Shown one piece after another: positions 3,186-21,300 of a stretch of DNA of 47,761 nucleotides (within the stretch, counting starts at the first letter, position 1; the number at the start of each line of letters is the position of its first letter). The stretch comes from Lachnospiraceae bacterium (GTDB lineage Bacteria; Bacillota; Clostridia; Lachnospirales; Lachnospiraceae). The stretch covers positions 1 through 47,761 of the forward strand of contig JAFWDM010000125.1 of assembly GCA_017513005.1 (NCBI GenBank), read 5' to 3'. Below the pieces are notes generated by a model. The model had not been told where the DNA came from, searched no databases, and worked only from the letters and a program-made list of their open reading frames with translations. The position numbers were made by a program, and so were the translations under genes.

Positions 3186-4055
3186 TTACAGCTTCAGGCC
3201 GGTGAGCAGGGTGTAGGCCTCTTCATACTTGGCGATGGTCTTGTCGATGACTTCCTGGGGAAGCTTGTAGCCGCTGTCGGGATTGGCTTTGAGCCAGTCG
3301 CGGACGAACTGCTTGTCGAAAGAAGGCTGGCCGTGGCCGGGCGCATAGCCCTCTGCGGGCCAGAAACGGCTGCTGTCGGGAGTGAGCATCTCGTCGCCCA
3401 GGACGACGTTGCCCTTTTCATCGAGGCCGAATTCAAACTTGGTGTCGGCGATGATGATGCCGCGGGTCCTGGCGTACTCGGCACACTTTTTATACAGGGC
3501 GATGGTGCAGTCGCGGATCTTCTCCGCGTACTCCTGCCCCTTGCCCGGGAAGGCTTTTTCCAGGACCTCGACGCTCTGTTCGAAGCTGATGTTCTCGTCG
3601 TGGTCGCCGATCTCGGCCTTGGTGCTGGGCGTATAGATGGGCTCGGGCAGCTGTGCGCACTCCTGCAGGCCCTCGGGGAGCTGAATGCCGCAGACAGTCC
3701 CGTTTTTCTGATAGCTCTCCCAGCCGCTGCCGGTGATGTAGCCGCGGACGATGCATTCGATCGGGAGCATGGTCAGCTTTTTGCACATCATGCTGTTTCC
3801 GTCAAACCGGTCCTGCCGGAAAAACTCGGGCATATCGCTGACATCCGTGCTGATCATGTGATTGGGCAGGATATCCTTCGTAAAGTTGAACCAGAAGCGG
3901 GACATCTGTGTCAGGACCGTCCCTTTCTTTGTGATCTTGTTTTTCAGGATCACATCGAAAGCGGAGATGCGGTCGGTCGCCACCATGATGAGACTGTCGC
4001 CGACGTCGTAGATCTCCCGGACCTTGCCCTCTTTAACGGGTGTATATGTTTTCAT
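3186..4055 (-). CDS. purC: SAICAR synthetase (phosphoribosylaminoimidazole-succinocarboxamide synthase)
   Basis: Joins CAIR and aspartate with ATP to give SAICAR in de novo purine synthesis. Family signatures are clear: KEGKVREIYDVGD at the N terminus, RISAFDVIL, IECIVRGYITGSGWESY and the DTKFEFG...LGDEMLTPDSSRFW block near the middle. At 289 aa it is in the size range of the longer SAICAR synthetases. The frame is open to 4076, but MKTYTPVKEGKVRE at 4055 is preceded by AAAGGAG at the right distance, so the extra seven residues are left out. It is transcribed alone from a promoter at 4193-4221. No other purine genes are visible, which is unusual since pur genes are often clustered. Confidence 0.96.
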   Translation of the reverse strand: MKTYTPVKEGKVREIYDVGDSLIMVATDRISAFDVILKNKITKKGTVLTQMSRFWFNFTKDILPNHMISTDVSDMPEFFRQDRFDGNSMMCKKLTMLPIECIVRGYITGSGWESYQKNGTVCGIQLPEGLQECAQLPEPIYTPSTKAEIGDHDENISFEQSVEVLEKAFPGKGQEYAEKIRDCTIALYKKCAEYARTRGIIIADTKFEFGLDEKGNVVLGDEMLTPDSSRFWPAEGYAPGHGQPSFDKQFVRDWLKANPDSGYKLPQEVIDKTIAKYEEAYTLLTGLKL

Positions 4056-4192
4056 CGTTTTTACTGCTCCTTTCAAAAAAGTGATCGCCGGCCGGCTGTG
4101 CGGAGTGAGCCGGATGCAGGATTGTGCACAGTATCATCGGGCCCTTCTCCCGAAGAACCGGGACAGAATGGTACTGTGAAAGAAATATAGCT

Positions 4193-4221
4193 ATTGTAGC
4201 ACACTCTGTATCCGATGAAAA
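4193..4221 (-). promoter_or_regulatory. purC promoter (sigma-A type)
   Basis: On the minus strand: -35 TTTTCA (4216-4221), 17-base spacer, -10 TACAAT (4193-4198). The leader to the purC start is about 130 bases. No purine riboswitch core was recognised in it. Confidence 0.6.
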
Positions 4222-4280
4222 GAAAGGGATTTTCGTCGAACGCTTTTGTTACAGTACAGGCCTGCCTGAAGCCTCTAGGT

Positions 4281-4307
4281 GTTTTTCGCGGCTTTTTCGC
4301 GAAAAAC
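4281..4307. other. Perfect hairpin between aroC and purC
   Basis: GTTTTTCGCG (4281-4290) and CGCGAAAAAC (4298-4307) form a 10-bp stem with a 7-base loop. It lacks a following T run in either direction, so it is not a standard terminator; it may close the aroC operon transcript. The rest of the 4056-4415 gap holds only the purC promoter. Confidence 0.5.
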
Positions 4308-4415
4308 CCGAGTGAAACAGCGCGAACACGCTTTTTACATGCAGCCCGGGTCTTCAGGTCGTCTGAGTCGCAGCTTCGAGCCGGCAGCAGATCCGGCCGC
4401 TGTGTCAGGGCTGAG

Positions 4416-5561
4416 TCAGCAGGACTGCGCCGGTTCCTTTTTCCTTCCGAGAAAGGCATCGTAGACGGCGATGGCGGCAGCGGCCTCGACACAGGGCACG
4501 GCGCGCGGCACGATGCAGGGATCGTGGCGGCCGGGGACGACGAGGGTAGTCTCCCTGCCGGTGACCAGGTCAACGCTCTGCTGCGGTTTTGCGATCGAGG
4601 GGGTGGGCTTGACGGCCACCCGGAAGACGAGGGGCATGCCGTTGGTGATGCCGCCCAGGATCCCGCCGCTGTTGTTGGTCATGGTGCGGACGCGGGAGAG
4701 GACCGCAGAAGCATCTGGAGAGCGGAGGGCATCTCCGCCGGCAGGGGCGGATGTTTCTTTGGCAGGGGCCAGAGAAAAGGCATCGTTGTTTTCACTGCCG
4801 GTCATCCGGGCGGCGGCAAAGCCGGCTCCGAATTCGATGCCCTTGACCGCGGGGATGCCGAAGGTGATCTGCGCGATGCGGTTTTCCATTCCGTCAAACA
4901 TGGGGTCGCCCAGTCCCGCGGGGAGGCCCGTGACGATGCATTCGATGACGCCGCCGACAGAATCGCCCTCTGCCTTTTTCTCTGCGATCAGCGCCCGCAT
5001 TTTTTCTCCCTGCGCGTCACTCACGACCGGAAAGAGCTTTTGTGCCGTGGGGGAGGTGAGAGGGCCGCGGTCCTCGATATTCCCGATCGAGAGGATGCGG
5101 GAGAGGATGCGGATCCCCTGCCGCTGCAGGAGCTGGGCGCAGATCCCGCCCGCGACGCACAGGGGCGCCGTCATGCGGCCGGAAAAATGTCCGCCGCCGG
5201 CATAGTCCTGGAAGCCGCCGTATTTGACCTCCGCGGTGAAGTCGGCGTGGCCCGGACGGGGAACTCTTTTGAGGGCGGCATAATCCTTTGAGCGGGTATC
5301 GGTGTTCGGGATCACGGCGGTGAGCGGCGTGCCGCAGGTGATATCGCCGCGAAGACCGGACAGAAAAGAGGGCAGGTCCGCCTCCCTGCGCGGCGTCGAC
5401 CAGTCATTTTGTCCCGGAGCCCTGCGGGCGAGAAAGGCGCGGAGGGCCTCCATGTCGATCGCTTCTCCCGCGGGGATCCCCTCCAGTGTCATGCCGATCG
5501 CGGGGGAATGGGACTGTCCGAAGATCGTCAGATGGATATTTTCACCGTAGCGGCTGCTCAT
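4416..5561 (-). CDS. aroC: Chorismate synthase
   Basis: Converts 5-enolpyruvylshikimate-3-phosphate to chorismate using reduced FMN, the last step of the common aromatic pathway. Signatures seen: GQSHSPAIGMTLEGIPAG near the start, RPGHADFTAEVKYG, the GGHFSGRMTAP motif, and GSENND...VRTMTNNSGGILGGITNG. The family core is interrupted at about residues 260-285 by an Ala/Pro/Ser-rich insert (APAKETSAPAGGDALRSPDA) not expected in typical members. Start chosen at MSSRYGE because AGGAGGTG lies just upstream and the ATG overlaps the aroB stop as ATGA (5558-5561), meaning translational coupling. 381 aa. Last gene of the aroF-tyrA-aroB-aroC operon. Confidence 0.96.
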   Translation of the reverse strand: MSSRYGENIHLTIFGQSHSPAIGMTLEGIPAGEAIDMEALRAFLARRAPGQNDWSTPRREADLPSFLSGLRGDITCGTPLTAVIPNTDTRSKDYAALKRVPRPGHADFTAEVKYGGFQDYAGGGHFSGRMTAPLCVAGGICAQLLQRQGIRILSRILSIGNIEDRGPLTSPTAQKLFPVVSDAQGEKMRALIAEKKAEGDSVGGVIECIVTGLPAGLGDPMFDGMENRIAQITFGIPAVKGIEFGAGFAAARMTGSENNDAFSLAPAKETSAPAGGDALRSPDASAVLSRVRTMTNNSGGILGGITNGMPLVFRVAVKPTPSIAKPQQSVDLVTGRETTLVVPGRHDPCIVPRAVPCVEAAAAIAVYDAFLGRKKEPAQSC

Positions 5562-6733
5562 AGTGCACCTCCTGCGCGTAGCCATTGTGTCAGATCCTCC
5601 CGACTGACTTTTTCGATCAGGCAGCGCCCGATCTCTGCCGGGACGATCAGGCGGATGGACCCGCCCTTCGCCTTTTTGTCCGAGAGCGCCGCGTCCGCCA
5701 GCGCCTGTGCCCTGTAAGGAAGCTCCGTCGGCAGACCGTATGCGTCCAGGATCTTTCCGACGGTCTCAGGGACATCGCCGGTGCAGAATCCGAAACGGCA
5801 GGCGGCCCTTGCGATGGACGCCATGCCGATGGCGACGGCCTGCCCGTGCGGGACGCTGTAGGCGCTGCAGGCCTCTACGGCATGCCCGAAGGTGTGGCCG
5901 AAGTTCAGCAGCATCCGGAGCCCCGTATCAAATTCATCCTGTTCGACGACGTCGCGTTTCATCGCCACACAGCGGGCGATGACATCCTCGTAGTGCTCCC
6001 GGACGGGACTTTTCAGAAGCGTAAAGAAAAAATCCCGGTCTCCGATCATCCCGTATTTGATGATCTCGGCGCAGCCGTTTTTGTACTCCTCCTCCGGGAG
6101 CGTATCCAGCGTATTCGTGTCGCACAGGACCAGGGAAGGCTGGTAGAAGCAGCCCGCCTGGTTTTTTCCCTCGGGCAGGTCCACAGCGGTCTTTCCGCCG
6201 ACCGAGGAGTCCACCGCCGCCAGGAGCGAAGTGGGGATCTGGACAAAACCGGTGCCCCTCTGGTAGGTCGCTGCGGCAAAGCCCGCCAGATCACCGGTCA
6301 CCCCTCCGCCGAGCGCGGCGACGACATCGGTCCGGGACATATGTCCCGCACACATCCGGCCCAGAAGGGCCCCGTAGGTCTGCAGGTTTTTGCTGGCCTC
6401 CCCGTGCGGGAAGACAAAATCCAGGACCCGGAAACCGGCATTTTCTAGGCTGGTCCGGACAGTCTCCCCATACAGGGCATAGACCCGGTCGTCCGAAACC
6501 AGCATGGCGGTCTTGCCCCGGGCGGGCTCCTGCAGCCCCGCGGCCTTCGGACCGGGTTTCCTGCCTTCCCCTTTAAGGTCAGCACCGGTACCCGGCCCCG
6601 CAGTCTCCGGAATCATGTCATCAGGCACCGCACAGCCGATCGCTGCGGCGATCCGCCGTCCCGCCTGCTGCAGGAGCCCCTGCCCGATCACAACATCATA
6701 CTGCCTGCTGGCGTGCACAGTTACTGTCTGCAT
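5558..6733 (-). CDS. aroB: 3-dehydroquinate synthase
   Basis: Second enzyme of the shikimate pathway: NAD- and metal-dependent cyclisation of DAHP to 3-dehydroquinate. Family features: ALGGGVTGDLAGFAAATYQRGTGFVQIPTSLLAAVDSSVGGKTAVD (NAD and substrate site), the metal-ligand region NFGHTFGHAVE and PHGQAVAIGM. Residues about 34-74 are an extra Gly/Pro/Lys-rich segment (PETAGPGTGADLKGEG...) inside the N-terminal domain, which explains the 391-aa length against about 350-360 usually. The frame opens at 6763, but AAGGAGAAGT sits directly before the ATG at 6733, which starts the conserved MQTVTVHASRQYDVVIG. It overlaps aroC by 4 bases and is separated from tyrA by a structured 112-base spacer. Confidence 0.96.
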   Translation of the reverse strand: MQTVTVHASRQYDVVIGQGLLQQAGRRIAAAIGCAVPDDMIPETAGPGTGADLKGEGRKPGPKAAGLQEPARGKTAMLVSDDRVYALYGETVRTSLENAGFRVLDFVFPHGEASKNLQTYGALLGRMCAGHMSRTDVVAALGGGVTGDLAGFAAATYQRGTGFVQIPTSLLAAVDSSVGGKTAVDLPEGKNQAGCFYQPSLVLCDTNTLDTLPEEEYKNGCAEIIKYGMIGDRDFFFTLLKSPVREHYEDVIARCVAMKRDVVEQDEFDTGLRMLLNFGHTFGHAVEACSAYSVPHGQAVAIGMASIARAACRFGFCTGDVPETVGKILDAYGLPTELPYRAQALADAALSDKKAKGGSIRLIVPAEIGRCLIEKVSREDLTQWLRAGGAL

Positions 6734-6754
6734 ACTTCTCCTTATTTCGTATCT

Positions 6755-6825
6755 GTTTAGCACCCCGCGCCTCTGTCAGCCCGGGATTGCAGGTGCATAG
6801 CACCTGCAATATGGGGGTGCTGAAC
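6755..6825. other. Nested inverted-repeat structure between tyrA and aroB
   Basis: Inner hairpin: ATTGCAGGTGC (6786-6796) and GCACCTGCAAT (6800-6810), 11 bp perfect, 3-base loop. Outer stem: GTTTAGCACCCC (6755-6766) pairs with GGGGTGCTGAAC (6814-6825), 11 of 12. No T run follows on the minus strand, so it is not a plain terminator. In the operon mRNA it sits 20 bases upstream of the aroB start. Confidence 0.6.
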
Positions 6826-6845
6826 AGTTATCTTATTTCATCTTA

Positions 6846-7814
6846 TTATTTCTTATTTTTTCCTGCGCCGTCGACTTCTTCCTTGATGTCCCTGCCCTCC
6901 GCCAGGAGGCGGATCAGTTCCCCGCGGTCGCCGCGGTCGATGGCTGCGCGGTACTGCTCCAGGTTCGCAATGATCGTATCCAGCTCCCGCAGCAGGTATT
7001 TTTTGTTGTCCAGGAACAGCTGTGTCCACATCTCCGGATTGAGCCAGGCGACGCGGGTCATGTCCTTGTAGCTGCCTGCGGACAGTCCGGTATGTCTGCG
7101 GGCTGTGGGACTCTTGATGTAGGCGTTCGAGACAACGTGGGCCAGCTGGGAGGTAAAGGCGATGACCTCATCGTGGATCTCCGCGTCCGAGACGGTGATG
7201 CTGCCGAATCCTGCGGGCATCAGCATGGCCTTGATGCCGGCCAGGAAGGCGGGATCATCGTAACGGGGAGGCACGATGACCATGGGAGCCCCCTGGTAGA
7301 GGTTCTCCCTGGCATATTTGTAGCCGGAATACTGGGTCCCGGCCATGGGATGGCCGCCCACATAGGTGAAGCCGTACCGGGCGCCGAGCTCGCGGCCCCG
7401 CTTTACCACGGCCCCCTTGGTGCCGCAGCAGTCCATGACCAGGGGATGGGGGCCGAAAAGCGGGCCTTTTTCCTCCATGTAGCGGATCGCGGCCTCCGGG
7501 TAGACGCAGATCAGGACCAGGTCGCACTGCGGGAGCAGGTCATCCGTGAGCTCGCGGGAGGCGCCGCCGTCCAGAAGGGCGAATTTGGTGACAGAAGGGT
7601 CCCTGTCATAAGCGGCGACCTCATGCCCTGCCTTCGTGTAGGCTTTTGCAAAGGAGCCGCCGATGAGCCCGAGCCCGACGATGCCGACCAGCATGTGGCC
7701 CTTTCCTTCTCTGCTGCCGGGCACGCGGTTCATTGGATCCGGGCCGGCAGACGCCCTGCTGCCGGCTTCCGCGCTGCCGGGCATGCGGTTTTCGGGATTT
7801 GTCCTGTTCAGCAT
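6846..7814 (-). CDS. tyrA: Prephenate dehydrogenase
   Basis: NAD-dependent oxidative decarboxylation of prephenate to 4-hydroxyphenylpyruvate, the committed step to tyrosine. The Rossmann motif VGIVGLGLIGGSFAKAY comes at residues 42-58, with the conserved GGHPMAGT near residue 150 and the all-helical dimerisation half after it. No C-terminal ACT domain is seen. Two starts are possible. The ATG at 7814 has a very good GGGAGG and overlaps the aroF stop by 7 bases, but it adds a 40-aa Pro/Gly/Ser-rich extension built from a 60-bp near-duplicate. The ATG at 7694 (MLVGIVGLGL) fits the usual family start and has a fair AAGGAAAGG. Family call is secure; the N terminus is open. Confidence 0.93.
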   Translation of the reverse strand: MLNRTNPENRMPGSAEAGSRASAGPDPMNRVPGSREGKGHMLVGIVGLGLIGGSFAKAYTKAGHEVAAYDRDPSVTKFALLDGGASRELTDDLLPQCDLVLICVYPEAAIRYMEEKGPLFGPHPLVMDCCGTKGAVVKRGRELGARYGFTYVGGHPMAGTQYSGYKYARENLYQGAPMVIVPPRYDDPAFLAGIKAMLMPAGFGSITVSDAEIHDEVIAFTSQLAHVVSNAYIKSPTARRHTGLSAGSYKDMTRVAWLNPEMWTQLFLDNKKYLLRELDTIIANLEQYRAAIDRGDRGELIRLLAEGRDIKEEVDGAGKNKK

Positions 7815-8812
7815 ACGGCCACCTCCCTGACTGCCCGGACTTTTGCGGCCAGTTTTTCATATTCCTCCGGGCGGATGGACTGGGCCCCGTCGCAGAGCGC
7901 GTGCGGCGGATCGTTATGGACCTCGATGAGAAGCCCGTCCGCGCCGGCAGCCGTCGCGGCGACTGCCATGGGCGCCACCATTCTGGCGATGCCGGTCGCA
8001 TGGCTGGGGTCGACGACGACCGGCAGATGGGAGAGCTCGTGCAGCATCGGGACCGCGGACAGGTCGAGCGTATTGCGGAAGTAGTCCCCGAAGGTCCGGA
8101 TGCCCCGCTCGCACAGGATCACATTTTCATTGCCGTTGGACATGATGTACTCCGCGCTCATGAGGAGTTCCCGGAGGGTGTTCGCCAGGCCCCGCTTGAG
8201 CAGGATGGGCTTTTTCGTGGTGCCCAGCTCCTTGAGCAGGTCAAAATTCTGCATATTCCTGGCCCCGACCTGGAGAACATCGATATCCTCAAAGAGGGGC
8301 AGGTCGGCGGCGTTCATGATCTCCGAAACGATCGGCAGGCCTGTTTCCTGCCTGGCGATCCGCAGCAGTTCGAGCCCGTCGGCCTTGAGACCCTGAAAAT
8401 CGTAGGGGGAGGTGCGGGGCTTGAAGGCGCCCCCGCGGAGCATATTGGCGCCGGCCGCCTTGACGGCTTTTGCGATCGCGACGATCTGGTCTTCGGATTC
8501 GACGGAGCAGGGACCGGCGATCATGCAGAAATGGCCGCTGCCGACCCGGACGTCGCCGACCTCCACGACGGTGTCCTCCGGATGAAACTTGCGGTTTGCC
8601 CGCTTGAAGGGCTCCGAGACCCTCTTTACGGTCTCCACGATATCCAGGCTGTCGATCAGGTCCATATCCACGCCGGCGGTATCGCCGATCAGGCCCAGGA
8701 CGGTCTGGTACTCACCGACAGAGGTGTGCACACCCACGCCCAGCGTCCCCAGCCAGTCGATCAGCTGCTCGCGCTTGTTCTGTTCCACATCCGGTTTTAA
8801 TACGATGATCAT
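7808..8812 (-). CDS. aroF: 3-deoxy-7-phosphoheptulonate (DAHP) synthase with N-terminal ferredoxin-like domain
   Basis: First step of aromatic biosynthesis: phosphoenolpyruvate plus erythrose-4-phosphate to DAHP. Residues 1-70 (MIIVLKPDVEQNKREQLIDW...) resemble the ferredoxin-like regulatory domain of the type I-beta enzymes, which in characterised members confers feedback inhibition by Tyr/Phe. The TIM-barrel follows: IAGPCSVES, LRGGAFKPRTSPYDFQG, QVGARNMQNFDLL, PILLKRG, LCERGIRTF, VVDPSHATG. Start at 8812 is set by the conserved MIIVLKP and an AAAGGAT site; the frame extends 21 codons further into the attenuator stem. It heads the operon, behind a Tyr-rich leader peptide (8952-9011) and a terminator (8851-8894), so control is probably at both transcription and enzyme level. 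Confidence 0.96.
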   Translation of the reverse strand: MIIVLKPDVEQNKREQLIDWLGTLGVGVHTSVGEYQTVLGLIGDTAGVDMDLIDSLDIVETVKRVSEPFKRANRKFHPEDTVVEVGDVRVGSGHFCMIAGPCSVESEDQIVAIAKAVKAAGANMLRGGAFKPRTSPYDFQGLKADGLELLRIARQETGLPIVSEIMNAADLPLFEDIDVLQVGARNMQNFDLLKELGTTKKPILLKRGLANTLRELLMSAEYIMSNGNENVILCERGIRTFGDYFRNTLDLSAVPMLHELSHLPVVVDPSHATGIARMVAPMAVAATAAGADGLLIEVHNDPPHALCDGAQSIRPEEYEKLAAKVRAVREVAVC

Positions 8813-8850
8813 AGTCTTTTGTATCCTTTCTGCTTTTTGCATCTGTGAAG

Positions 8851-8894
8851 GAGAAGAAAAAGAAAAATGCGGCACAGGTCAATCTGTGCCGCAT
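8851..8894 (-). terminator. Attenuator terminator between leader peptide and aroF
   Basis: On the minus strand ATGCGGCACAG (8894-8884) pairs with CTGTGCCGCAT (8877-8867) across a 6-base loop and is followed at once by TTTTTCTTTTTCTTC. It stands between a Tyr-rich leader ORF and the aroF start, which is the expected place for an attenuator. A competing antiterminator was not resolved by eye; ATGAAG (8914-8919) with CTTCAT (8893-8898) and TACCTTT in the leader ORF with AAAGGTA after its stop are candidate alternative pairings. Confidence 0.85.
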
Positions 8895-9190: not shown

Positions 9191-9250
9191 AGCAGAGAAT
9201 CAGGGCAGACAGCAGGGCGAAGCCGGCTGGAATCAGCGCTGAGACAGAAT

Positions 9251-9318
9251 CAATTCATGCAAAGAATCGAATCATACAAAGAAGCAATTCATACAAAGAA
9301 GCAATTCATACAAAGAAT
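9251..9318. repeat. 17-bp tandem repeat in the GTPase-NYN leader
   Basis: Four units at period 17: starts at 9251, 9268, 9285 and 9302, consensus CAATTCATACAAAGAAG. It lies in the 5' untranslated region about 70 bases before the start codon. Confidence 0.88.
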
Positions 9319-9387
9319 CAACGAAGACACAGAATGCGCGCAGGCAGGGGATCGATCCTTCTGCGTGCCGGAAGGAAATAGGCTACT

Positions 9388-12300
9388 ATGGGATCTCAGT
9401 CCAACGATCATCAGAACCTGGAAAAAGAATATATGAGCATCGGGCTGCTCGCGCATGTGGACGCCGGCAAGACGACGCTCTCGGAGGCGGTCCTGCACCG
9501 GACAGGCGCGATCCGCAGTGCCGGGCGGGTGGACCACGGGGATGCTTTTCTGGATACGGATGCCATGGAGCGGGACCGCGGGATCACGATTTTTTCCAAG
9601 CAGGCTTCCTTTACCACATTTCCAGAGGGCCTTCGGGAACGGGTCTGGACCCTGGTCGATACGCCCGGGCACGCGGATTTTTCCACGGAGATGGAGCGGG
9701 TACTGCAGGTCCTGGACTGTGCGGTCCTGATCATCAGCGCGGCGGACGGCGTGACCGGGCAGGTGCGCACCCTGTGGCGGCTCCTGGACCATTATCAGGT
9801 CCCCTCCTTCCTCTTTGTGAACAAGATGGACCAGCCCGGCGCGGACCGGGCTGCCGTCTATGCGCAGATCCGGGAGGAGCTAGGGACTGCCTGTGTGGAC
9901 CTGCAGGGGGAGACAGCCTTCAAGGACTCCGGGACAGGCGGAAGCGGCGGCTCGCCCCGGGATGCCAAAAAAGACGGCCGGACCGGAGAAAAGGCGGGGA
10001 CGAACGGTGCAGGGAGCGATGCAGACAGCCCCCTGCGCGGAAGCTTTTCGCAGCAGATCCAGGAGGAGATCGCGGTCTGTGACGAAGACCTGATGGAGCG
10101 CTTTTTCGAGGGCGGTGAGATCAGGACGGCGGATGCCGCAGACCTTGTCATGCGGCGCAGGCTCTTTCCGGTCTGCTTCGGGTCGGCCCTCCGCGAAGAG
10201 GGGGTGGAGGATCTCCTGGCCATGCTGGATGCGCTGGCGCCCGTCCCGGTCCGGGGGGAGAACTTCGGGGCCCGGGTCTTTAAGATCACGCACGATGCAG
10301 GCGGGGCCCGGCTGACCTGGATGAAGATCACCGGCGGCAGGCTCCTGCCGCGGCAGCAGATCCCGGAGAGCCCGGATGAGAAGGGACTGCCGGAAAAGGC
10401 GTCGCAGCTCCGCTTTTACAAGGGCAGCCGGTTTGAGGCCCTGCAGGAGGCGCCCGCCGGCATCATCGTCGCGGTGCCGGGGCTCTCGGCGACCCGCGCC
10501 GGTATGGGACTGGGCGCGGAGGCCGGGCAGGAGGAGAAGGAGCAACTGCTGCAGCCGGTCATGCAGAGCCGGCTTCTGCTGCCGCCGGGCCAGGATCTCT
10601 ACGCAGCCTTCAGGATGCTCAGGACGCTGGAGGAAGAGGATCCCATGCTGCATCTCTCCTATGATGAGGAAAAAAGGGAGATCACCGTGCAGATCATGGG
10701 ACAGGTGCAGCGGGAGATCCTGCAGCGCCGGATCCTGGAGCGGTTCGGGATGAAGGTGTCGTTCGGGGAGCCCGGGATCGTGTACCGGGAGACCATCGCG
10801 GAGGCGGCGGAGGGCGTCGGACACTTCGAGCCGCTGCGCCACTACGCCGAGGTCCACCTGCTCCTGGAGCCGGGAGAACCCGGGTCCGGCCTGGTCTTTG
10901 AGAGCCGCTGCAGTGTCAATGATCTGGCTCTGAACTGGCAGCGCCTGATCCTGACCCACCTGGAGGAGCGCCGCCACCGCGGCGTCCTGACTGGCGCGGA
11001 GATCACGGATATGAAGATCAGTATCATCGGCGGCCGTGCCCACGCCAAACACACTGAGGGCGGGGATTTCCGCAAGGCGACTTACAGGGCTGTGCGCCAG
11101 GGTCTGATGATGGCAAAGTCCGTCCTTCTGGAGCCGGACTACGATTTCCGCCTGGAGGTCCCGCAGGAGAGCGTCGGGCGCGCGATGGCGGACCTGCAGC
11201 AGATGGGAGCCGGGTTCGGGCAGCCGGAGTTTCAGGAAAAGACCGGCATGGCAGTTCTGCGGGGCACGGTGACGGTCGCCGCCCTGGGCAGCTATGCGGA
11301 GGAAGTCGCCGCCTACACCCGCGGGGCGGGAACCCTGCAGTGTACGCTCCGGGGATATATCCCCTGCAAAAACGCGGAGGCGGTCATCGCCGCTTCCGGG
11401 TATGATCCGGAACTGGATCCGCGCAATCCCTCGTCCTCTGTTTTCTGTTCCCACGGGGCGGGCACGATCATTCCCTGGTATGAAGTGCGGAGCTTCATGC
11501 ATGTTGACACCGGATGGAGATTTCCCGGCGAAGCCGCTTCCATGACGCAGGACGAGGCGCTGGATCTGGCCGCGGAGCGCGCACGTCAGGCAGCGCTGGA
11601 ACGCGAAAAAAAGCGGCGGTTTCTGGAGGGAATGGAGGATGGACCGGGACAGGCCGGGACAGCTTTCGATCCAACAGACACAGGAAAAGAAGGAGGAATC
11701 GGAAGGAGACCGGCTTCGGGAGAAGGCGGTGCGGGACGGGGAGCCTTACCGGGACGCGGGAGCGCTCCGCGCGACGATGCCTTCAAGCGCCGACAGCAGG
11801 CGGTCTTTGCGCAGGAAAAGGAGCTCATGCAGATCTTCGAGCGCACCTACGGGCCCATGAAGCCCCGGGCCGGTGCCGGCGGGGGACTCTTTGAAGATCC
11901 TGCTTTTTCCGGTGCCTCCGGGAAGGCGGGGGAAAAGAAGGGGGCGGGCGGAAGCCATGCAGGCCCCGCAGAATCCGGAGGGACCGGACGGGGGAAAAAG
12001 CCTCAGGTTCCGTCGGACCACTACCTGCTGGTCGACGGCTACAATATCATTTTTGCATGGGAGGACCTGCGCAGCCTCGCCCTGCGCGACATCAAGGCGG
12101 CCCGCGACAGCCTTATGGACATTCTCTCCAATTTTGCAGGCTACAGACCGGAGAAGATCATCCTGGTCTTTGACGCCTACAAAGTGGCGGGAGGCCCCGG
12201 CGAAGTCCTGCGCTGGCACAATATCGACGTCGTCTTCACGAAAGAAGCCGAGACGGCGGACCTCTATATCGAAAAGACAGCCCACGTCCTTGCGAAAAAA

Positions 12301-12456
12301 TACAGGGTCACGGTCGCGACCTCCGATGCCGTGGAACAGATCATCATCTTCGGTTCGGGCGCCTACCGCATGTCCGCGCAGATGCTGCTCGAAGAGATCA
12401 TCTTTACACAGCGGGAGATGCGGGAGCGCTACGGGATCGGCAGCGATGAAGAATGA
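9388..12456 (+). CDS. Ribosomal-protection-type GTPase fused to a Rae1/YacP-like NYN ribonuclease domain
   Basis: Residues 1 to about 700 form an EF-G-like translation GTPase close to Tet(M)/Tet(O) types: P-loop AHVDAGKT (22-29), RDRGITI switch region (62-68), DTPGH (91-95), NKMD (145-148), then domains II to V. Known relatives act on the ribosomal A site. Residues about 877-1010 form a second domain matching Rae1/YacP, a ribosome-associated A-site mRNA endonuclease of the PIN/NYN fold: LVDGYNIIFAW (D883), VFDAY (D929), VFTKEAETAD (E955, D958), VATSD (D980), IIFGSGAYRMSAQ. A long Gly/Arg/Lys-rich linker (about 730-870) joins them, and another low-complexity insert occupies about 170-215. Start: ATG 9388 after GGAAGGAAAT. 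All GTPase and acidic nuclease signatures are intact, so both halves look active. Tetracycline resistance is not implied by sequence alone. Confidence 0.9.
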   Translation: MGSQSNDHQNLEKEYMSIGLLAHVDAGKTTLSEAVLHRTGAIRSAGRVDHGDAFLDTDAMERDRGITIFSKQASFTTFPEGLRERVWTLVDTPGHADFSTEMERVLQVLDCAVLIISAADGVTGQVRTLWRLLDHYQVPSFLFVNKMDQPGADRAAVYAQIREELGTACVDLQGETAFKDSGTGGSGGSPRDAKKDGRTGEKAGTNGAGSDADSPLRGSFSQQIQEEIAVCDEDLMERFFEGGEIRTADAADLVMRRRLFPVCFGSALREEGVEDLLAMLDALAPVPVRGENFGARVFKITHDAGGARLTWMKITGGRLLPRQQIPESPDEKGLPEKASQLRFYKGSRFEALQEAPAGIIVAVPGLSATRAGMGLGAEAGQEEKEQLLQPVMQSRLLLPPGQDLYAAFRMLRTLEEEDPMLHLSYDEEKREITVQIMGQVQREILQRRILERFGMKVSFGEPGIVYRETIAEAAEGVGHFEPLRHYAEVHLLLEPGEPGSGLVFESRCSVNDLALNWQRLILTHLEERRHRGVLTGAEITDMKISIIGGRAHAKHTEGGDFRKATYRAVRQGLMMAKSVLLEPDYDFRLEVPQESVGRAMADLQQMGAGFGQPEFQEKTGMAVLRGTVTVAALGSYAEEVAAYTRGAGTLQCTLRGYIPCKNAEAVIAASGYDPELDPRNPSSSVFCSHGAGTIIPWYEVRSFMHVDTGWRFPGEAASMTQDEALDLAAERARQAALEREKKRRFLEGMEDGPGQAGTAFDPTDTGKEGGIGRRPASGEGGAGRGALPGRGSAPRDDAFKRRQQAVFAQEKELMQIFERTYGPMKPRAGAGGGLFEDPAFSGASGKAGEKKGAGGSHAGPAESGGTGRGKKPQVPSDHYLLVDGYNIIFAWEDLRSLALRDIKAARDSLMDILSNFAGYRPEKIILVFDAYKVAGGPGEVLRWHNIDVVFTKEAETADLYIEKTAHVLAKKYRVTVATSDAVEQIIIFGSGAYRMSAQMLLEEIIFTQREMRERYGIGSDEE

Positions 12457-12568: not shown

Positions 12569-12806
12569 GGTCATGAGCCGGTACTTTCAACAGCATCGTT
12601 ATGGATGAGCGTTACGGATACTCGTTATTGATGACGGCTGTAGGAAAACCGTAGTAAAAACCACCTTTATTCGTTTTTTCGCTGCGGAGAAAAGCTGCGG
12701 ACCGCAGGCGCCCGGAAACTGTAAAAAGGAGGCCTGCAGCATGCTTTTACGGGTCTTTCGAAAAAAGGGTGTGACCGCAGGTTCCGCCGGAAAGAAAGGA
12801 GTTATC

Positions 12807-13187
12807 ATGGCAACCCTGAAGGTTTTTAAATGTCAGAAGTGCGGCAGCATGGTCGTGAAGATCAACGAAGGCGGCTGCAGCCCCTCCTGCTGCGGAGAGC
12901 TCATGACCGAGCTGACTGCAAATACGACGGACGGCGCAAAGGAAAAGCATGTACCGGATGTGAAGATCGTCGACGGCGCGGTCCAGGTCCAGGTCGGATC
13001 TGTCGAGCATCCCATGGTGGAAAAACACTACATTCAGTTCATCGCCCTCGAGACGGAAAAAGGCGTCCAGGTCAAGTGGCTTAAACCCGATGATGCGCCG
13101 AAGGCTGTCTTTACCCTGATCGACGACAAGCCGGTCGCCGTCTACGAGTACTGCAACCTGCATGGACTCTGGAAGGCGGAGATCTGA
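12807..13187 (+). CDS. dfx: Desulfoferrodoxin (superoxide reductase)
   Basis: Reduces superoxide to hydrogen peroxide without making oxygen, a typical defence of anaerobes; cytoplasmic. Residues 1-36 are a desulforedoxin-type iron domain with C9, C12, C28 and C29. The C-terminal domain carries the Fe(His4Cys) catalytic centre: H48, H68, H74, C116 and H119 (EKHVP, EHPMVEKHYIQFI, YCNLHGLW). The lysine near the active site is visible in EKHVP. 126 aa, the usual two-domain size. The frame is open to 12741, but AAAGGAG just before ATG 12807 and the family start (MATLKVFKCQKCG) fix the start. Electrons probably come from rubredoxin or NADH systems encoded elsewhere. A good terminator follows at 13262. 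Confidence 0.96.
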   Translation: MATLKVFKCQKCGSMVVKINEGGCSPSCCGELMTELTANTTDGAKEKHVPDVKIVDGAVQVQVGSVEHPMVEKHYIQFIALETEKGVQVKWLKPDDAPKAVFTLIDDKPVAVYEYCNLHGLWKAEI

Positions 13188-13261
13188 GAGATTTTCAGAT
13201 CATAATGAAAGGGCCTGTCACTGCGTCATGAGGACAGTCCTGTGAAGCCGTTTCATTCAGG

Positions 13262-13296
13262 ACCGCCCGGAGAGATACTGTCTCCGGGCGGTTTTC
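13262..13296 (+). terminator. Terminator of the superoxide reductase gene
   Basis: ACCGCCCGGAGA (13262-13273) pairs perfectly with TCTCCGGGCGGT (13281-13292), 7-base loop, followed by TTTC. A smaller hairpin, GATCTGA/TCAGATC, covers the stop codon at 13181-13201. Confidence 0.85.
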
Positions 13297-13302
13297 AGAG
13301 TG

Positions 13303-13408
13303 TTCGGAGCAGTCCGACAGAGTGTTCAGGGCAGGCTGATGCGTATTCGGAGCAGTCCGACAGAGTGTCCGGAGAAAGCTTATAGGTGCGCAGGGCAGGC
13401 TGATACGT
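13303..13408. repeat. Composite tandem repeat upstream of the RNA methyltransferase gene
   Basis: A 23-base segment beginning TTCGGAGCAGTCCGACAG occurs at 13303 and 13346 (period 43). CAGGGCAGGCTGAT-CGT occurs at 13327 and 13391. The array lies between the dfx terminator and the methyltransferase start and accounts for the non-conserved upstream extension of that reading frame. Confidence 0.8.
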
Positions 13409-13494
13409 GTTCAGGGCGGGACACGGGACAACGTGGACGCCGGCAGTGGTCCGCCCGCAGCAAGGATAGTAAAGAAAAGAAAAGGGAAAAGATC

Positions 13495-14820
13495 GTGAAG
13501 AAGGGAAAATCGACCGGAAACAGAATAGTTTTTGACAAAAAGAATACATCCGGAAGCAGCGCTCCGCAGGGGGAAAGCGGGCAGGACGGCGGGAAGAAAA
13601 AAAAGAAGTCCCGCTGCCCGGTCTCGAAGCTCTGCGGCGGGTGCTCGATGATCGATATGCCCTATGAGGAACAGATCCGGGGCAAGATGGACATCCTGGA
13701 GGATCTGATCGGGGACTATGTCGTCCCGGAGCCCTTCATCCGCATGAAGGCTCCCGAGCACTACCGGCACAAGGTGACGCGTATCTTTGCGCCGGACAGG
13801 AAGGGAAAGCCCGCCAGCGGGATCTACCGCGAGGGGACCCACGAGGTGATCCCGGTGAAGTCCTGCCTGATCGAGCATATCCAGGCGGACCGGATCATAC
13901 AGACGATCTTTGACCTGCTGCCCTCCTTCCGGATCCATGTCTACGACGAGGATATGGATATCGGACTTTTGCGCTATGTGCAGGTGCGGGCGGCCCGCGT
14001 GACAAAGGAGATCATGGTCACCCTGGTCATGACGGATCCGATCCTCCCTTCGCGCAACACCTTCGTCCGGGAGCTGACGAAAAGGCACCCCGAGATCACG
14101 ACGATCGTCATCAATGTCAACGACCGCAATACGACCATGGTGCTCGGAAACAGGGAAAAGGTGATCTACGGGAAGGGGTATATCGAGGACGTCCTGTGCG
14201 GGAAGCGGTTCCGCATCTCCTCCCGGTCTTTTTACCAGGTCAATCCCCTGATGACCGAGAAGCTCTATAATATCGCGATCGACTGCGCCGCCCTCTCCGG
14301 AAAGGAAACCGTGCTGGACACCTACTGCGGCATCGGCACGATCGGGATCATAGCCGCCCCGCACGCCCGCCGCGTGGTCGGCGTCGAGCTCAATGCCGAG
14401 GCGGTCGCCGACGGCATGCACAATGTCCGTGCCAATCACCTGGACAACATCGAGATCGTCCAGGGGGATGCCACGGCGTTTATGGAGGAGATCGCGGAGC
14501 GCATGGCAGGCAGAGAGGGATCTGATCCTGCAGGGCAGGCCGGCCCTTTTACAGCTGGCAGAGGGGGAGACCCTGCCGAAAGCATAGACGTCATCTTTAT
14601 GGATCCGCCCCGCAGCGGCGCCACGGAGGCCTTCATGCAGGCGGCCTGTGCCGTGCGGCCGAAGAAGATCGTCTACATTTCCTGCAGCCCCTGGTCCCTG
14701 CAGCGTGACCTGGCCTTTTTTGCGCAGAACGGATATGCGGCGAAAAAGGCGATCCCCGTGGACATGTTCCCGTATACGGGCGGGATCGAGACGGTGTGTC
14801 TGCTGAAACCGGAGGGATGA
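13495..14820 (+). CDS. Iron-sulfur RNA (uracil-5-)-methyltransferase, RumA/TrmA family (probably 23S rRNA)
   Basis: SAM-dependent methylation of a uridine at C5, most likely in 23S rRNA as for RlmD/RlmCD. An FeS cluster site is formed by C41, C47, C50 and C124 (CPVSKLCGGC then VKSC), the same spacing pattern as RumA. The SAM site is LDTYCGIGTIGIIA, followed by FMDPPRSGATEAF and the catalytic Cys397 in YISCSPWSLQRDL. An insert rich in Gly/Ala/Pro (near residues 340-365) precedes the DPPRSG motif. Start is GTG 13495 after AAAAGGGAAAAG; the frame runs open to 13300, but that part is only tandem-repeat DNA. A Lys/Arg-rich head (residues 1-40) is plausible for RNA binding. It ends flush against the convergent hydrolase gene with no spacer. 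Confidence 0.92.
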   Translation: MKKGKSTGNRIVFDKKNTSGSSAPQGESGQDGGKKKKKSRCPVSKLCGGCSMIDMPYEEQIRGKMDILEDLIGDYVVPEPFIRMKAPEHYRHKVTRIFAPDRKGKPASGIYREGTHEVIPVKSCLIEHIQADRIIQTIFDLLPSFRIHVYDEDMDIGLLRYVQVRAARVTKEIMVTLVMTDPILPSRNTFVRELTKRHPEITTIVINVNDRNTTMVLGNREKVIYGKGYIEDVLCGKRFRISSRSFYQVNPLMTEKLYNIAIDCAALSGKETVLDTYCGIGTIGIIAAPHARRVVGVELNAEAVADGMHNVRANHLDNIEIVQGDATAFMEEIAERMAGREGSDPAGQAGPFTAGRGGDPAESIDVIFMDPPRSGATEAFMQAACAVRPKKIVYISCSPWSLQRDLAFFAQNGYAAKKAIPVDMFPYTGGIETVCLLKPEG

Positions 14821-17292: not shown

Positions 17293-18369
17293 TTGAAAAA
17301 GAGAGATAGAGCGTCCGGAGGGAGACGTCCTTCGGTCAGAAGAAAAAAGATCCTGCTGACAGGGTGTCTGAGCATCCTGCTGATCCTTATGCCGGTACAG
17401 TCTGCGCTGGGCAGTTCTTTGCCGCGAAAGACCGCGGCCGCATGGTCCGGTTCGGTCCTCTCTGCCGCAGAGGTGTCACAGTTTGCGCCCGCTGGGCCCC
17501 GGGGGATAAAGAGTCCGGCTGGTCCGGCCTGTACAGGCCCGGATCTGGCGGCTGCAGATCCGGCGGATACCGGGCGGACAGACCCGGCGAAGGCGGAGCC
17601 GGGCCGGAAGGATTCCGGCGGTACGGATCCGGCTCTGAAAGCGGCGGGACAGAAGGAAGAAAGCCGGAAAGATTCCGTTCGAGAGGGCTCCGAGGGTTCC
17701 GATCAGGAGGATTCCCAACAGGAGGATTCCCATCAGAAGGGCTCCGGTCAGGAGGGCTCCGATTACAGGGATTCCAGTCAGGGGGGCTCCGGTCAGGAGG
17801 GTCCCGGTCAGAAGGAAACCGGGGAGACAGACCCCGAACAGCCGGACCCCGGACAGAAGGATCCCGGACAGACGGGTACCGGCCGGGAGGATCCCGGACA
17901 GGATGATCCCGGGCAGTCGGATCCCGCGCAGAAGGATCCTGCGCCGAAAGAGCCGGAGCAGGACACTTCCGGCCTGGAAAAAGAGGGAGAAGATGGCGGG
18001 AAAGCCGGTCACGGGGATACCGCAGAGAAGGAGACGGCCGAGCAGACGGCGCGGCCGGAGACGAGGAACCGGGGAACGAACTGCGCCCGGAAGACCGGGG
18101 CAGGGAGCCGGAGACCACTGCGGATCCCGCAGAAGAGAGAGAGGGAAGAAACGAAACTGCGGGCAGGGCGGCAGGTGATGAAACCGCCGCCTCCCGGGAA
18201 GGGAGCGGGCGCACAGAACAGGCGGATACGGCCCGGGACACCGCTGCTGACCCGGGACAGAAAGAGGAAAAGAGCGGGGAACCGGCAGCCGGACGATCCG
18301 GGGCGGCACCCGCGGAGGCGGCCGCAGAAGCGGAGGAAAACGCTTTCCCGGCGGAAGAGCCGTGGATGA
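17293..18369 (+). CDS. N-terminal part of a large surface adhesin (signal peptide and stalk), frameshifted from the rest
   Basis: Start TTG 17293 after AAGGAG. Residues 1-40 are a long export signal (basic head with RRKK, then LLTGCLSILLILMPVQSALG). Residues about 45-250 are low-complexity Pro/Gly/Asp/Gln/Ser repeats (GQEGS, DPGQKDPGQ), a wall-spanning stalk. Around base 18045-18062 the character changes at once from acidic to Arg/Lys-rich, which is what out-of-frame reading of an acid-rich gene gives. The frame one base back (codons starting 18063, 18066...) continues acidic (EEPGNELRPED...AEEPWMTVSEFNRAF) straight into the ORF at 18366. So residues after about 252 are probably not real, and 17293-22754 is one gene missing one base here: a true frameshift mutation, phase variation or a sequence error. 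Confidence 0.75.
   Translation: MKKRDRASGGRRPSVRRKKILLTGCLSILLILMPVQSALGSSLPRKTAAAWSGSVLSAAEVSQFAPAGPRGIKSPAGPACTGPDLAAADPADTGRTDPAKAEPGRKDSGGTDPALKAAGQKEESRKDSVREGSEGSDQEDSQQEDSHQKGSGQEGSDYRDSSQGGSGQEGPGQKETGETDPEQPDPGQKDPGQTGTGREDPGQDDPGQSDPAQKDPAPKEPEQDTSGLEKEGEDGGKAGHGDTAEKETAEQTARPETRNRGTNCARKTGAGSRRPLRIPQKREREETKLRAGRQVMKPPPPGKGAGAQNRRIRPGTPLLTRDRKRKRAGNRQPDDPGRHPRRRPQKRRKTLSRRKSRG
17695..17950 (+). repeat. Coding tandem repeats in the adhesin stalk
   Basis: Units of 15 bases, such as CAGGAGGATTCCCAA and GGTCAGGAGGGCTCC, encode Q-E-D-S / G-Q-E-G-S. They pass into DPGQ-type units from about 17835. The repeats stay in the frame of the signal peptide, so unit gain or loss would change stalk length without breaking the frame. 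Confidence 0.8.
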
Positions 18370-21300
18370 CGGTCTCCGAGTTCAACCGCGCCTTCGAGAG
18401 CGTGACGAGCGGGGCCGCGAACGCGGGGGCCTCCACCCTCTCGAACGCGAAGATCGTCAGCAAGGAGAGCGAGATCAACTACGAGGACCTCGGCATCGGG
18501 ACGCATGTCAGCGGACACCCGGGACATACGACGCCGATCAACGTGCGGGACGGAGACGGGAATGACTACACGGGGGTCTGTGTGGTGCCGGATGACCGGG
18601 GCTGGCCCAAGGGCACGGTCCTGCCCAACGTCACGAGGGTCACGGACGCCTCCATGATCAAGCTCTACTACTACACCATGCTGGACAGCTACGGCGAAGA
18701 CCTTGCTAAGTCAAAGGGCTTTGGAAGCGATTCGAAAAAGGTAGCAGTCGCGGCCTGCCACGAGGCGATGAGCATGCGCTATGCCCAGCTCGCAGGCATC
18801 GAATATGACCGGCCCAATGTGAAAAGCAACCTCAGTTCCCTCATCAGTGCCTACCGGACCGGCGTCTCCTCTAAACCGACACCGGACGCGGACAAAGTAT
18901 TTGTCTATATCAGCGCCCGCACCCAGAGCGGCGGCCACTGGATGCAGGCCTATGTATTCGGACGGGTCGAGGAGGATGAACCCTCCAGCATCGTCCTCAA
19001 AAAGGTGTCATCGGACCCGGATATGCGAAATGCCTACAGCCTCTATTACTGCCTCCATGAGACAGCCTCGGGCGGCACTGTGAATTTCCGCATGTACACG
19101 GACAAGGCCTGCACAAAGCGCGCCATTGTCTATACGGACGCCAATATGACGAAGGAGCTGGATCCGATCCCGGTGGGAATGAGCGGCAAGAGCGGTCTCT
19201 GGAACCAGGCAGTCTTCTACTGTGCGCCGGGGACCTACTACCTGAAGGAGCTGAATACCCCGCGGGGATACCAGCCCCACAGCGATCCCTTTGGTCCATA
19301 CACCCTGCAGGAAGGGAAGGGAAAGACGATCAAAGTGGAAAACAGCCCCGTGTATGCGAAGGCGGGAGTCCTGAAAAAAGACGCGAAAACAGGAAAGGGC
19401 CTGCCGGACGCAAAGTTCGGCCTCTACGCCGATCTGGAGGATGCCAGAAATGAGGCGGAACCCATGGGAGTCTTTACGACGGGCGGCGACGGCAGGTCCA
19501 ACCAGCTGGAGGTCCTGGCGGGCAGGACCTACTATGTCCGGGAGATCCAGGCTCCCCCGGGGTATAAGCTGATCAGCGGCGTGCGGGCTCTGAACGTGGC
19601 GAAAAGCTTCAGTGAAGTCGCCTGGACGGAGTTTACCAATGAACCGGATACGGGCACAGTGCAGGTCAGGAAAATATCTGCGGATCCGGCCGTCGACCTC
19701 CAGGCGGCAGGGTCGCCCTACAGCCTGGAAGGAGCGGAGTACACGCTCTATGATGCGAAGGGGGAGGTCGCCGGCACGATGACGACAGACGCCGCGGGCG
19801 TCTCCAATGTTCTGACTGTCCTGTGCGGGTCCTACACGGTAAAGGAGACGAAGCCGTCCCCCGGTTTTGATCCGGATCCCAATACCTATACAGTCACGGC
19901 GGAACCGGACGGGGAAGTGGTCGTGGAATCTGTGGAACCGGTACAGAAGACAAGGATCACCCTGCATAAATCCTCCTCCGAGGAAAAGGAGGAAAAGGCC
20001 CGGGACACGCTTCCGATCGCGGGTGCGGTCTACGGGATCTACGCATCCGAAGACGATGCCGGGGAGGAACAGGCAGCCCTGGGCACCTTCCTCGTCAAAG
20101 AGGATGGATCCGCGAATACCGTTGAAGTGCTGGCGGGGCGGACCTATTACGTAAAGGAGACGAAAACACCGGAGGGCTACCTTCCGGACGGGACGATCCA
20201 CAAGGTGGAGGCAAAATCCCTGAAAGAGACCGTCACAGTGGAGAGTGAGGACCGGCTGATCTTCGGCGGTGTCAAGGTCTGCAAGCTGGATCTGGAGACC
20301 AGCGCCGGCACGCCCCTGGGCACAGCCTCACTCGAGGGAGCGGTCCTGAAGATCTACAACGATGACGAGCGGTCTGTCTATGCGGACGGGAAAAAGATCC
20401 TGCCCGGCGCCGAGGCCATGACGCTCACGACGGATGCGGGCGGCATCGCGCAGACGGGATCCGGAGCCCTTTCCTACGGGCGGTACAGGATCGAGGAAGT
20501 GACCGCGCCCGAAGGATATACGAAGAAGGGGGCGAAGCCGGTCCGGTTTTCCATCAGAGAGGACGGCCGGGTCGTGGATCTCACCGGATCTGCAGAGACC
20601 TCTGTGCAGGACCAGGTGATCCGCGGTGATTTTTCCATCCGCAAGATCAACAGCTATACGCAGAAGCGTATGGCCGGGGTGACCTTTGAGGTCACGGCCC
20701 TGGACCGGGAGGGGAAAGAACTGGAGAAGCACCGCTTTACGACAGATAAAAACGGCTGTTTTGAGAGTACAGCAGCCTTTGCGGCGGGACAGGCCGGGCC
20801 GGGCGCTGCCGGAACCGCGCAGGCTGGCAATGCAGCGGAGCAGACAGACACAGCCGCCCCGCCTGAAACAGAGGGGCCGGCAGAGGCGGACGGTCAGGCA
20901 GAAACTGCAGCCGGCGGAAGGCTCTGGTTCGGAGCCGGGACGGAGCCTGCCGATTCTCTCGGCGCGCTTCCCTTCGGAGACTATCACATCGAGGAGATCG
21001 AGGGGGAGAACAACCGGGGCATGAAGATGTTTGCGGATGATTTTTCCATCTACGCGGACGGACAGGTCCTGGAACTGGGCAACATTGAGAACACACGCAG
21101 GCCTGTGCTGGAAACAGAGCTGCTGGATGAAGACGGCGACCACTTTGCAGACCAGAAGGGGATCGTCACCCTCACGGATACAGTGACCTATGCCGGCATG
21201 GAGGACTATATCGGAAAGGAGGTCACCTTCCATGGAGTGATCCATGTCAGGGAGACCGGACAGCCTCTCGTGATCGACGGCAGGACCGTGGAGTGTGTGA

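Follow-up and report, generated by a model that had tools for sequence, protein, structure and literature searches.

What does a single protein do that carries a translation-factor GTPase at one end and a Rae1/YacP-type nuclease at the other? The question is raised by one gene in a 47,761-nucleotide stretch of DNA from Lachnospiraceae bacterium (assembly GCA_017513005.1, contig JAFWDM010000125.1; hereafter the window), whose 1022-residue product joins an EF-G-type translational GTPase to a C-terminal YacP/Rae1 NYN domain. Here, we compare this gene with its relatives in 393 genomes of the same class and 398 of the same phylum. It is a real, conserved fusion; it appears to have replaced free-standing YacP, its GTPase groups apart from the Tet proteins, and on balance the protein is probably the Rae1 of its lineage.

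Rae1 of Bacillus subtilis is an A-site endonuclease that cuts messenger RNA (mRNA) (PMC6613710, PMC12320835); for how it reaches ribosomes, PMC6613710 offers only a hypothesis. S1025 (PMC11780869) and, going by the title of a reference, the bmrCD cryptic ORF are among its targets. The fusion architecture is already known: Atkinson 2015 (PMC4342817) described YacP-like NYN domains on ten 'Tet' proteins of clostridia and proposed that these serve in antibiotic resistance. The window protein is likened to these by architecture: in both cases a GTPase of EF-G/Tet type is joined to a YacP-like NYN domain, in Clostridiales, whereas the earlier proteins were named for Tet and resistance and the present GTPase is apparently non-Tet, in a fusion that seems to replace free-standing YacP. 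In our reading, this fusion type was mislabelled as Tet in that paper. The literature searched, which did not cover the key Rae1 papers, yielded no functional study of the fusion and no description of free-standing YacP replacement or of the non-Tet GTPase. A natural fusion that appears to stand in for free-standing Rae1 across many genomes offers a direct way into the question of how Rae1 is delivered.

A conserved fusion of a GTPase with a Rae1-type nuclease

The original prediction, made from the sequence of the window, described a single 1022-residue open reading frame (ORF) at 9388-12456 ending in a Rae1 domain with D883, D929, D958 and D980; coordinates, length and residues are all borne out. 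The domain search that it proposed (EF-G families plus NYN_YacP) recovers both the GTPase and the nuclease. The NYN_YacP profile (PF05991) scores 148 bits (2.9e-43; cut-off 24.6), far above chance, and EF-G domains I-V are found in order with intact GTPase motifs, domain II lying slightly below its cut-off. Like Rae1/YacP, for which structures have been solved (5mq8, 5mq9), the C-terminal part has an NYN domain with four aspartates: it can be aligned to them over 135 residues (E 4e-26), with D883, D929, D958 and D980 pairing with D7, D53, D81 and D104, a strong sequence match that would suit an NYN/PIN fold.

Fused proteins were found by motif (93, including the window's), and 90 were aligned after removal of three identical ones; three further fused proteins (L067, L092 and L121; G, L and f labels are our own for genomes, loci and families) were missed by the motif and lie outside this set. 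All 90 retain A22, H23, D25, G27, K28, T29, T67, D91-H95, N145, K146 and D148, and the last G-domain motif has S266 in 82 and alanine in eight. K554, H555, T556, G558, G559, D560, F561 and R562 at the domain-IV tip are present in 90/90, and the four NYN aspartates are likewise invariant.

GTPase motifs and NYN domain lie in one frame in 75 of 80 named loci; four others are cut by a contig edge with the GTPase tip still in frame with NYN, and one (L096) is too short. As these loci were chosen by similarity to the window's NYN domain, 75/80 is not a frequency; the recurrence of the one-frame chain across them indicates that the fusion is not an assembly artefact. The nearest named relatives are Lachnospiraceae, with NYN identity of 91-93% to the four nearest loci, Sarcina sp. 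DSM 11001 included. One metagenome-assembled genome (Candidatus Blautia stercoripullorum; L126 and L134) carries a different fused gene on each of two contigs, reflecting either a second copy or a mixed assembly.

In the six closest relatives, nonsynonymous divergence (dN) is 0.05-0.09 for the NYN domain versus 0.13-0.16 for the GTPase, at a synonymous divergence (dS) of about 0.7-1.5. By this measure the nuclease is the more constrained part of the fusion, and a decaying nuclease domain is ruled out, NYN dN being below GTPase dN. The linker that precedes it had been described as a long basic arm that lets the nuclease swing. Long it is, at 171 residues, but it is not basic, with a net charge of +2 and a family median of +0.5 (90 proteins), nor is it a mere swinging arm, as residues 795-826 form a conserved block; with so small a charge and this block conserved, it is not a simple basic arm.

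Fused and free-standing YacP

In the class survey, a frame of 780 residues or more was counted as fused and one of 155-230 residues as free-standing; direct checks of the GTPase part cover the 90 aligned proteins plus a few others, and elsewhere fusion was judged by frame length. YacP matches are present in 250 of the 393 genomes and absent from 143. The survey of fusion frequency suggested by the original prediction gives 128 genomes with a fused-length frame, alongside 113 with a free-standing one (in G341 as a second copy) and ten with other frame lengths. One 'fused' frame (789 residues, G130) covers only part of the NYN profile, and one of the ten others (342 residues, G343) is a YacP behind rlmB. 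The two forms occur together in a single genome (G341), a mutual exclusion whose p of 2e-23 ignores shared ancestry; the case for replacement is therefore built on these counts and on the yacP slot described below.

Of 37 genomes from the window's genus, 28 match YacP, with 26 fused-length and two shorter frames (G006, G011), and none of the 37 has a free-standing YacP; eight of the nine genomes without a match are less than 90% complete. Families f1, f42, f43 and f47 each contain both forms. Across the 398 genomes of the phylum, 28 have a fused-length member of the GTPase clade and six a close unfused one; a more distant set comprises seven further matches, one of them a second copy. Weak second PF05991 matches in G179 and G232 (21 bits) were rejected as YacP, because the host gene resembles AsnC/Lrp by eye; G266 has a weak second match as well.

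The order at the corresponding locus of relatives is cysS-mrnC-rlmB-yacP-sigH, several gene names at rlmB/sigH loci having been assigned by eye. A free-standing yacP lies between rlmB and sigH in six of the eight loci read (G341, G111, G153, G042, G623, G745); of the other two, one is behind rlmB with no sigH seen (G343) and one elsewhere (G267). The fusion lies outside this slot, a position that is not strictly defining for Rae1/YacP since six of the eight free-standing loci fit it. The window's own genome (97% complete) retains mrnC and rlmB at the old locus and has no yacP between rlmB and sigH, whose matches end 151 base pairs (bp) apart; its single PF05991 match is the fusion, which answers the earlier question of whether a separate yacP exists. 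Among 17 fused genomes examined at the slot, eight have rlmB beside sigH without yacP, two a decayed yacP (the first 29 codons in G056, two pieces in G427) and one an intact yacP (G341); the remaining six have no sigH directly beside rlmB within the stretch read and no yacP match. What had been named as telling against the fusion, a separate Rae1 that is always present and a decaying fused domain, is the opposite of what is found. From counts and slot together, the fusion appears to have replaced free-standing YacP.

Identities across 14 genomes correlate at r 0.88 between GTPase and NYN, 0.71 between NYN and RlmB and 0.57 between GTPase and RlmB. The fusion GTPase of G056 is 77-80% identical to those of G179, G232, G356 and G427, with RlmB only 54-58% identical. 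Because GTPase and NYN co-vary while RlmB diverges, the fusion seems to travel as a unit, displacing native yacP, and whole-gene transfer with such displacement fits this pattern. In the NYN tree, in which one row labelled free-standing (L096) runs off a contig edge, the fused domains are grouped with four label changes, at least two of them forced by well-supported branches, with weak support overall.

Free-standing YacP – mostly found in rlmB-yacP-sigH – has a basic C-terminal tail, whereas the fusion lies elsewhere and has lost it: the window's NYN domain lacks profile positions 139-166, the chain ending ...RYGIGSDEE. A basic-tail pattern, devised after viewing the tails, is present in 32 of 40 free-standing proteins (those fetched, not a random sample) versus 5 or 6 of 90 fused ones, and the median tail charge is +2 versus -1. 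The B. subtilis rae1 allele R166P, grouped with loss-of-function alleles (PMC6613710), falls by numbering within the basic tail. The GTPase may have taken over a putative docking role of the lost tail, and the swap of tail for ribosome-binding GTPase points to delivery of Rae1 by a translation factor.

The GTPase, its relatives and the proposed mechanism

The GTPase had been called 'Tet(M)-like', which holds at the level of the superfamily: it shares the five-domain EF-G plan and GTPase motifs with Tet(M)/Tet(O) and other Tet proteins, at 27-31% identity, and its best NCBIfam profile is tet_protect. With that profile it reaches 388.5 bits, where 775 is the cut-off for Tet proteins. Two midpoint-rooted trees, of 49 and 57 sequences (the second with a long-branch warning for the genome's own EF-G2-like row), set its clade apart from Tet(M), (O/W/32/O), (S), (Q), (36) and B(P) at support values of 100/99 to 100/100; a genuine Tet(M)-like gene from a genome of the same order (G057), serving as a control, is placed inside the Tet clade. 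In EF-G the domain-IV tip loops reach transfer RNA (tRNA), whereas those of Tet proteins reach the drug (PMC4342817). Here all six aligned Tet proteins (OtrA not among them) have the tip SP(V/A)STPADFR, and 90/90 of the fused family have KHTxGGDFR in its place. Tet proteins differ further in lacking the nuclease and in their C-terminal end, the extension at residues 664-706 being absent in the six aligned and common to unfused relatives of the fusion. The protein resembles EF-G in its catalytic motifs and in the order of its domains (identity to the EF-G of its own genome is 29%), and differs in the absence of the SSEMAF tip and in adding extension, linker and nuclease.

Judged by trees and tip, the GTPase belongs to a distinct non-Tet 'HTxGGDF' subfamily, and the earlier idea that it clears a drug as Tet(M) does is not supported, given its place outside the Tet clade and its lack of the Tet tip. 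Tetracycline resistance is probably not the function of genes of this clade that are labelled 'TetM/TetW/TetO/TetS family' by similarity, as the two closest plasmid-borne relatives are. Further Tet-like GTPases with an HTHPxDF tip (L215-L218, from Bacillota genomes) are sister to the Tet clade.

A sister group (96/89) is made up of 11 unfused members, which share the HT.GGD tip, have a C-terminal extension of SxFC type and lack an NYN domain. Another unfused HTxGGDF-type GTPase (644 residues, 41% identity) is encoded beside an rpsN gene on a Ligilactobacillus salivarius megaplasmid (L161, 3983-5917); it too has an SxFC-type extension and no NYN domain, and it is annotated as TetM/TetW/TetO/TetS family. 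It groups with the fused proteins (100/100) and in the best tree lies outside all fused rows; as support for that position is only 69/73, either an unfused cousin or a fused protein that has since shed its nuclease is possible. The simplest reading has a single fusion event, with further ones possible.

Architecture, intact motifs, yacP replacement, linked evolution, nuclease constraint and tail loss are what the sequences provide, and from them we infer the mechanism. On balance, the protein is probably its lineage's Rae1, an A-site mRNA endonuclease tethered to and delivered by a non-Tet translational GTPase. The GTP-bound factor would enter the A site of a paused ribosome via domain IV and vacate it on GTP hydrolysis; the NYN domain on its long linker would then cleave the exposed A-site mRNA, and the cut message would be left for decay and for rescue by transfer-messenger RNA (tmRNA) or a similar route. 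The original proposal of one factor that is directed to the ribosome and has a Rae1-type nuclease gains backing by comparison only: one genome in 393 with both forms, and a slot that is empty or decayed. More tentatively, and with rather less confidence than an even chance, we suggest a two-step GTP-driven factor that, on stalled ribosomes, probes or clears the A site before passing the exposed codon to the tethered nuclease, spreads as one gene between clostridial families, displaces free-standing Rae1 and has become the standard quality-control device of whole lineages.

Several observations count against delivery of the nuclease by the GTPase. Domain IV and NYN cannot share the A site, so that sequential steps are required, and we infer, rather than observe, ribosome binding by the lost tail. 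Linker length ranges from 67 to 225 residues across the family, with most of the sequence unconserved, and even the commonest neighbouring genes are shared by no more than 7 of 43 fused loci. Each part also occurs alone: the GTPase without a YacP match in G085, G088, G750 and G793 (completeness 95-98%), and YacP but not this GTPase in G111, G153, G264, G108, G131, G154, G176, G052, G039 and G041. Neither part therefore needs the other, and this weighs against a GTPase that serves only the nuclease. The two parts exist as separate genes in G267, G042, G046, G745, G623, G646 and G724; of the 11 genomes with unfused GTPases (about 643-672 residues), seven have a separate YacP and four do not, and as unfused copies exist in genomes without any YacP, the GTPase likely has a role of its own. 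G267, from the window's family, has a yacP outside the rlmB-sigH slot (L222, 4787-5308) and an unfused GTPase on another contig, and its NYN domain groups, with weak support, among the fused ones; it could possibly be a split fusion, an unfused forerunner or a second origin.

These separate occurrences are what speaks for two functions in one chain, in which the NYN domain, as an ordinary Rae1, would be joined only for co-production to a GTPase with separate work at the A site: four genomes have the GTPase without YacP, ten have YacP without this GTPase, and the linker varies in length and in most of its sequence. The fused NYN domains have nonetheless lost the basic YacP tail, the linker keeps its conserved block, and GTPase and NYN co-vary, and we regard this arrangement as unlikely. 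Less likely again is protection from tetracycline or another A-site drug, with the RNase adding to resistance, as Atkinson suggested. The best profile (tet_protect, 388.5 bits), the five-domain plan and the annotation of the two plasmid-borne relatives would all suit such a protein; set against them are a score below the 775-bit Tet cut-off, a place outside the Tet clade, the missing SPVSTPADFR tip (90/90), fused-length frames in about one third of class genomes, where they replace free-standing yacP, and the presence of a genuine Tet(M)-like gene within the same order (G057). On tip, clade and distribution, we reject drug resistance as the main explanation.

A nuclease for maturation of ribosomal RNA (rRNA) or tRNA, guided to the ribosome by the GTPase, would recall the role proposed for the NYN domain by Anantharaman and Aravind 2006 (cited in PMC4342817), and the free-standing gene does sit with mrnC (rRNA maturation) and rlmB (rRNA methylation). 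Later papers, however, make B. subtilis Rae1 an A-site mRNA cutter (PMC6613710, PMC12320835), and mrnC and rlmB are still at the old locus in the window's genome; we give this explanation very little credence.

Features of the gene and its surroundings

The coordinates of the gene and its parts are collected in Table 1. The sequence GGAAGG lies 5′ of the ATG, at 9370-9375, and translation might instead begin at an inner ATG, at residue 16. A 17-bp tandem repeat of 4.5 copies (AGAATCAATTCATACAA) occupies 9246-9321, 66 bp upstream of the start codon.

Table 1. Coordinates of the fusion gene and its parts in the window
Feature	Residues	Position	Strand	Basis
Fusion gene, EF-G-type translational GTPase + C-terminal YacP/Rae1 NYN domain	1022 in all	9388..12456	+	ORF, Pfam
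G domain, motifs AHVDAGKT, GIT, DTPGH, NKMD	14-285	9427..10242	+	Pfam GTP_EFTU, 4e-50
EF-G domain II	293-372	10264..10503	+	Pfam EF-G_D2, 25.9 bits, slightly below cut-off 27
EF-G domain III	408-460	10609..10767	+	Pfam EFG_III
EF-G domain IV	462-577	10771..11118	+	Pfam EFG_IV
Domain-IV tip AHAKHTEGGDFR; Tet counterpart SPVSTPADFR	551-562	11038..11073	+	Alignment
EF-G domain V	579-663	11122..11376	+	Pfam EFG_C
C-terminal extension, SVFC.HGAG..VPW..V..YMH type	664-706	11377..11505	+	Alignment
Linker, 171 residues, net charge +2	707-877	11506..12018	+	
Conserved block in linker, ...ELMQIFERTYGPMK...	795-826	11770..11865	+	Alignment
NYN_YacP (Rae1-type) nuclease domain	880-1015	12025..12432	+	Pfam NYN_YacP

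Downstream on the same strand, at 12741-14820, are genes for a desulfoferrodoxin and an RlmD-like uracil-5 methyltransferase. A protein of the RlmD-like methyltransferase cluster is among the most frequent neighbours of the fusion, present in 7 of 43 fused loci (the window, L055-L058, L075 and L076); no conserved operon was found, the neighbouring ORFs coming from a simple caller that also took antisense frames.

Two 'UNVERIFIED' faecal phage records (MT835563 and MT835514) carry a fusion about 48% identical to that of the window. A phage-borne fusion was considered and rejected: in MT835563, the one record in which neighbours were scanned, five of eight scanned ORFs have Pfam matches (NAD(P)H-hydrate dehydratase, DAP epimerase, aminotransferase, MgtE and a transporter), and as all five are ordinary bacterial genes the record is probably bacterial DNA.

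Elsewhere in the window, the minus strand at 3186-8875 carries genes resembling, by eye from their translations, purC, aroC, aroB, tyrA and the gene for DAHP synthase, and 18366-22754 encodes an adhesin-like surface protein of 1462 residues with SpaA and T-Q ester-bond domains.

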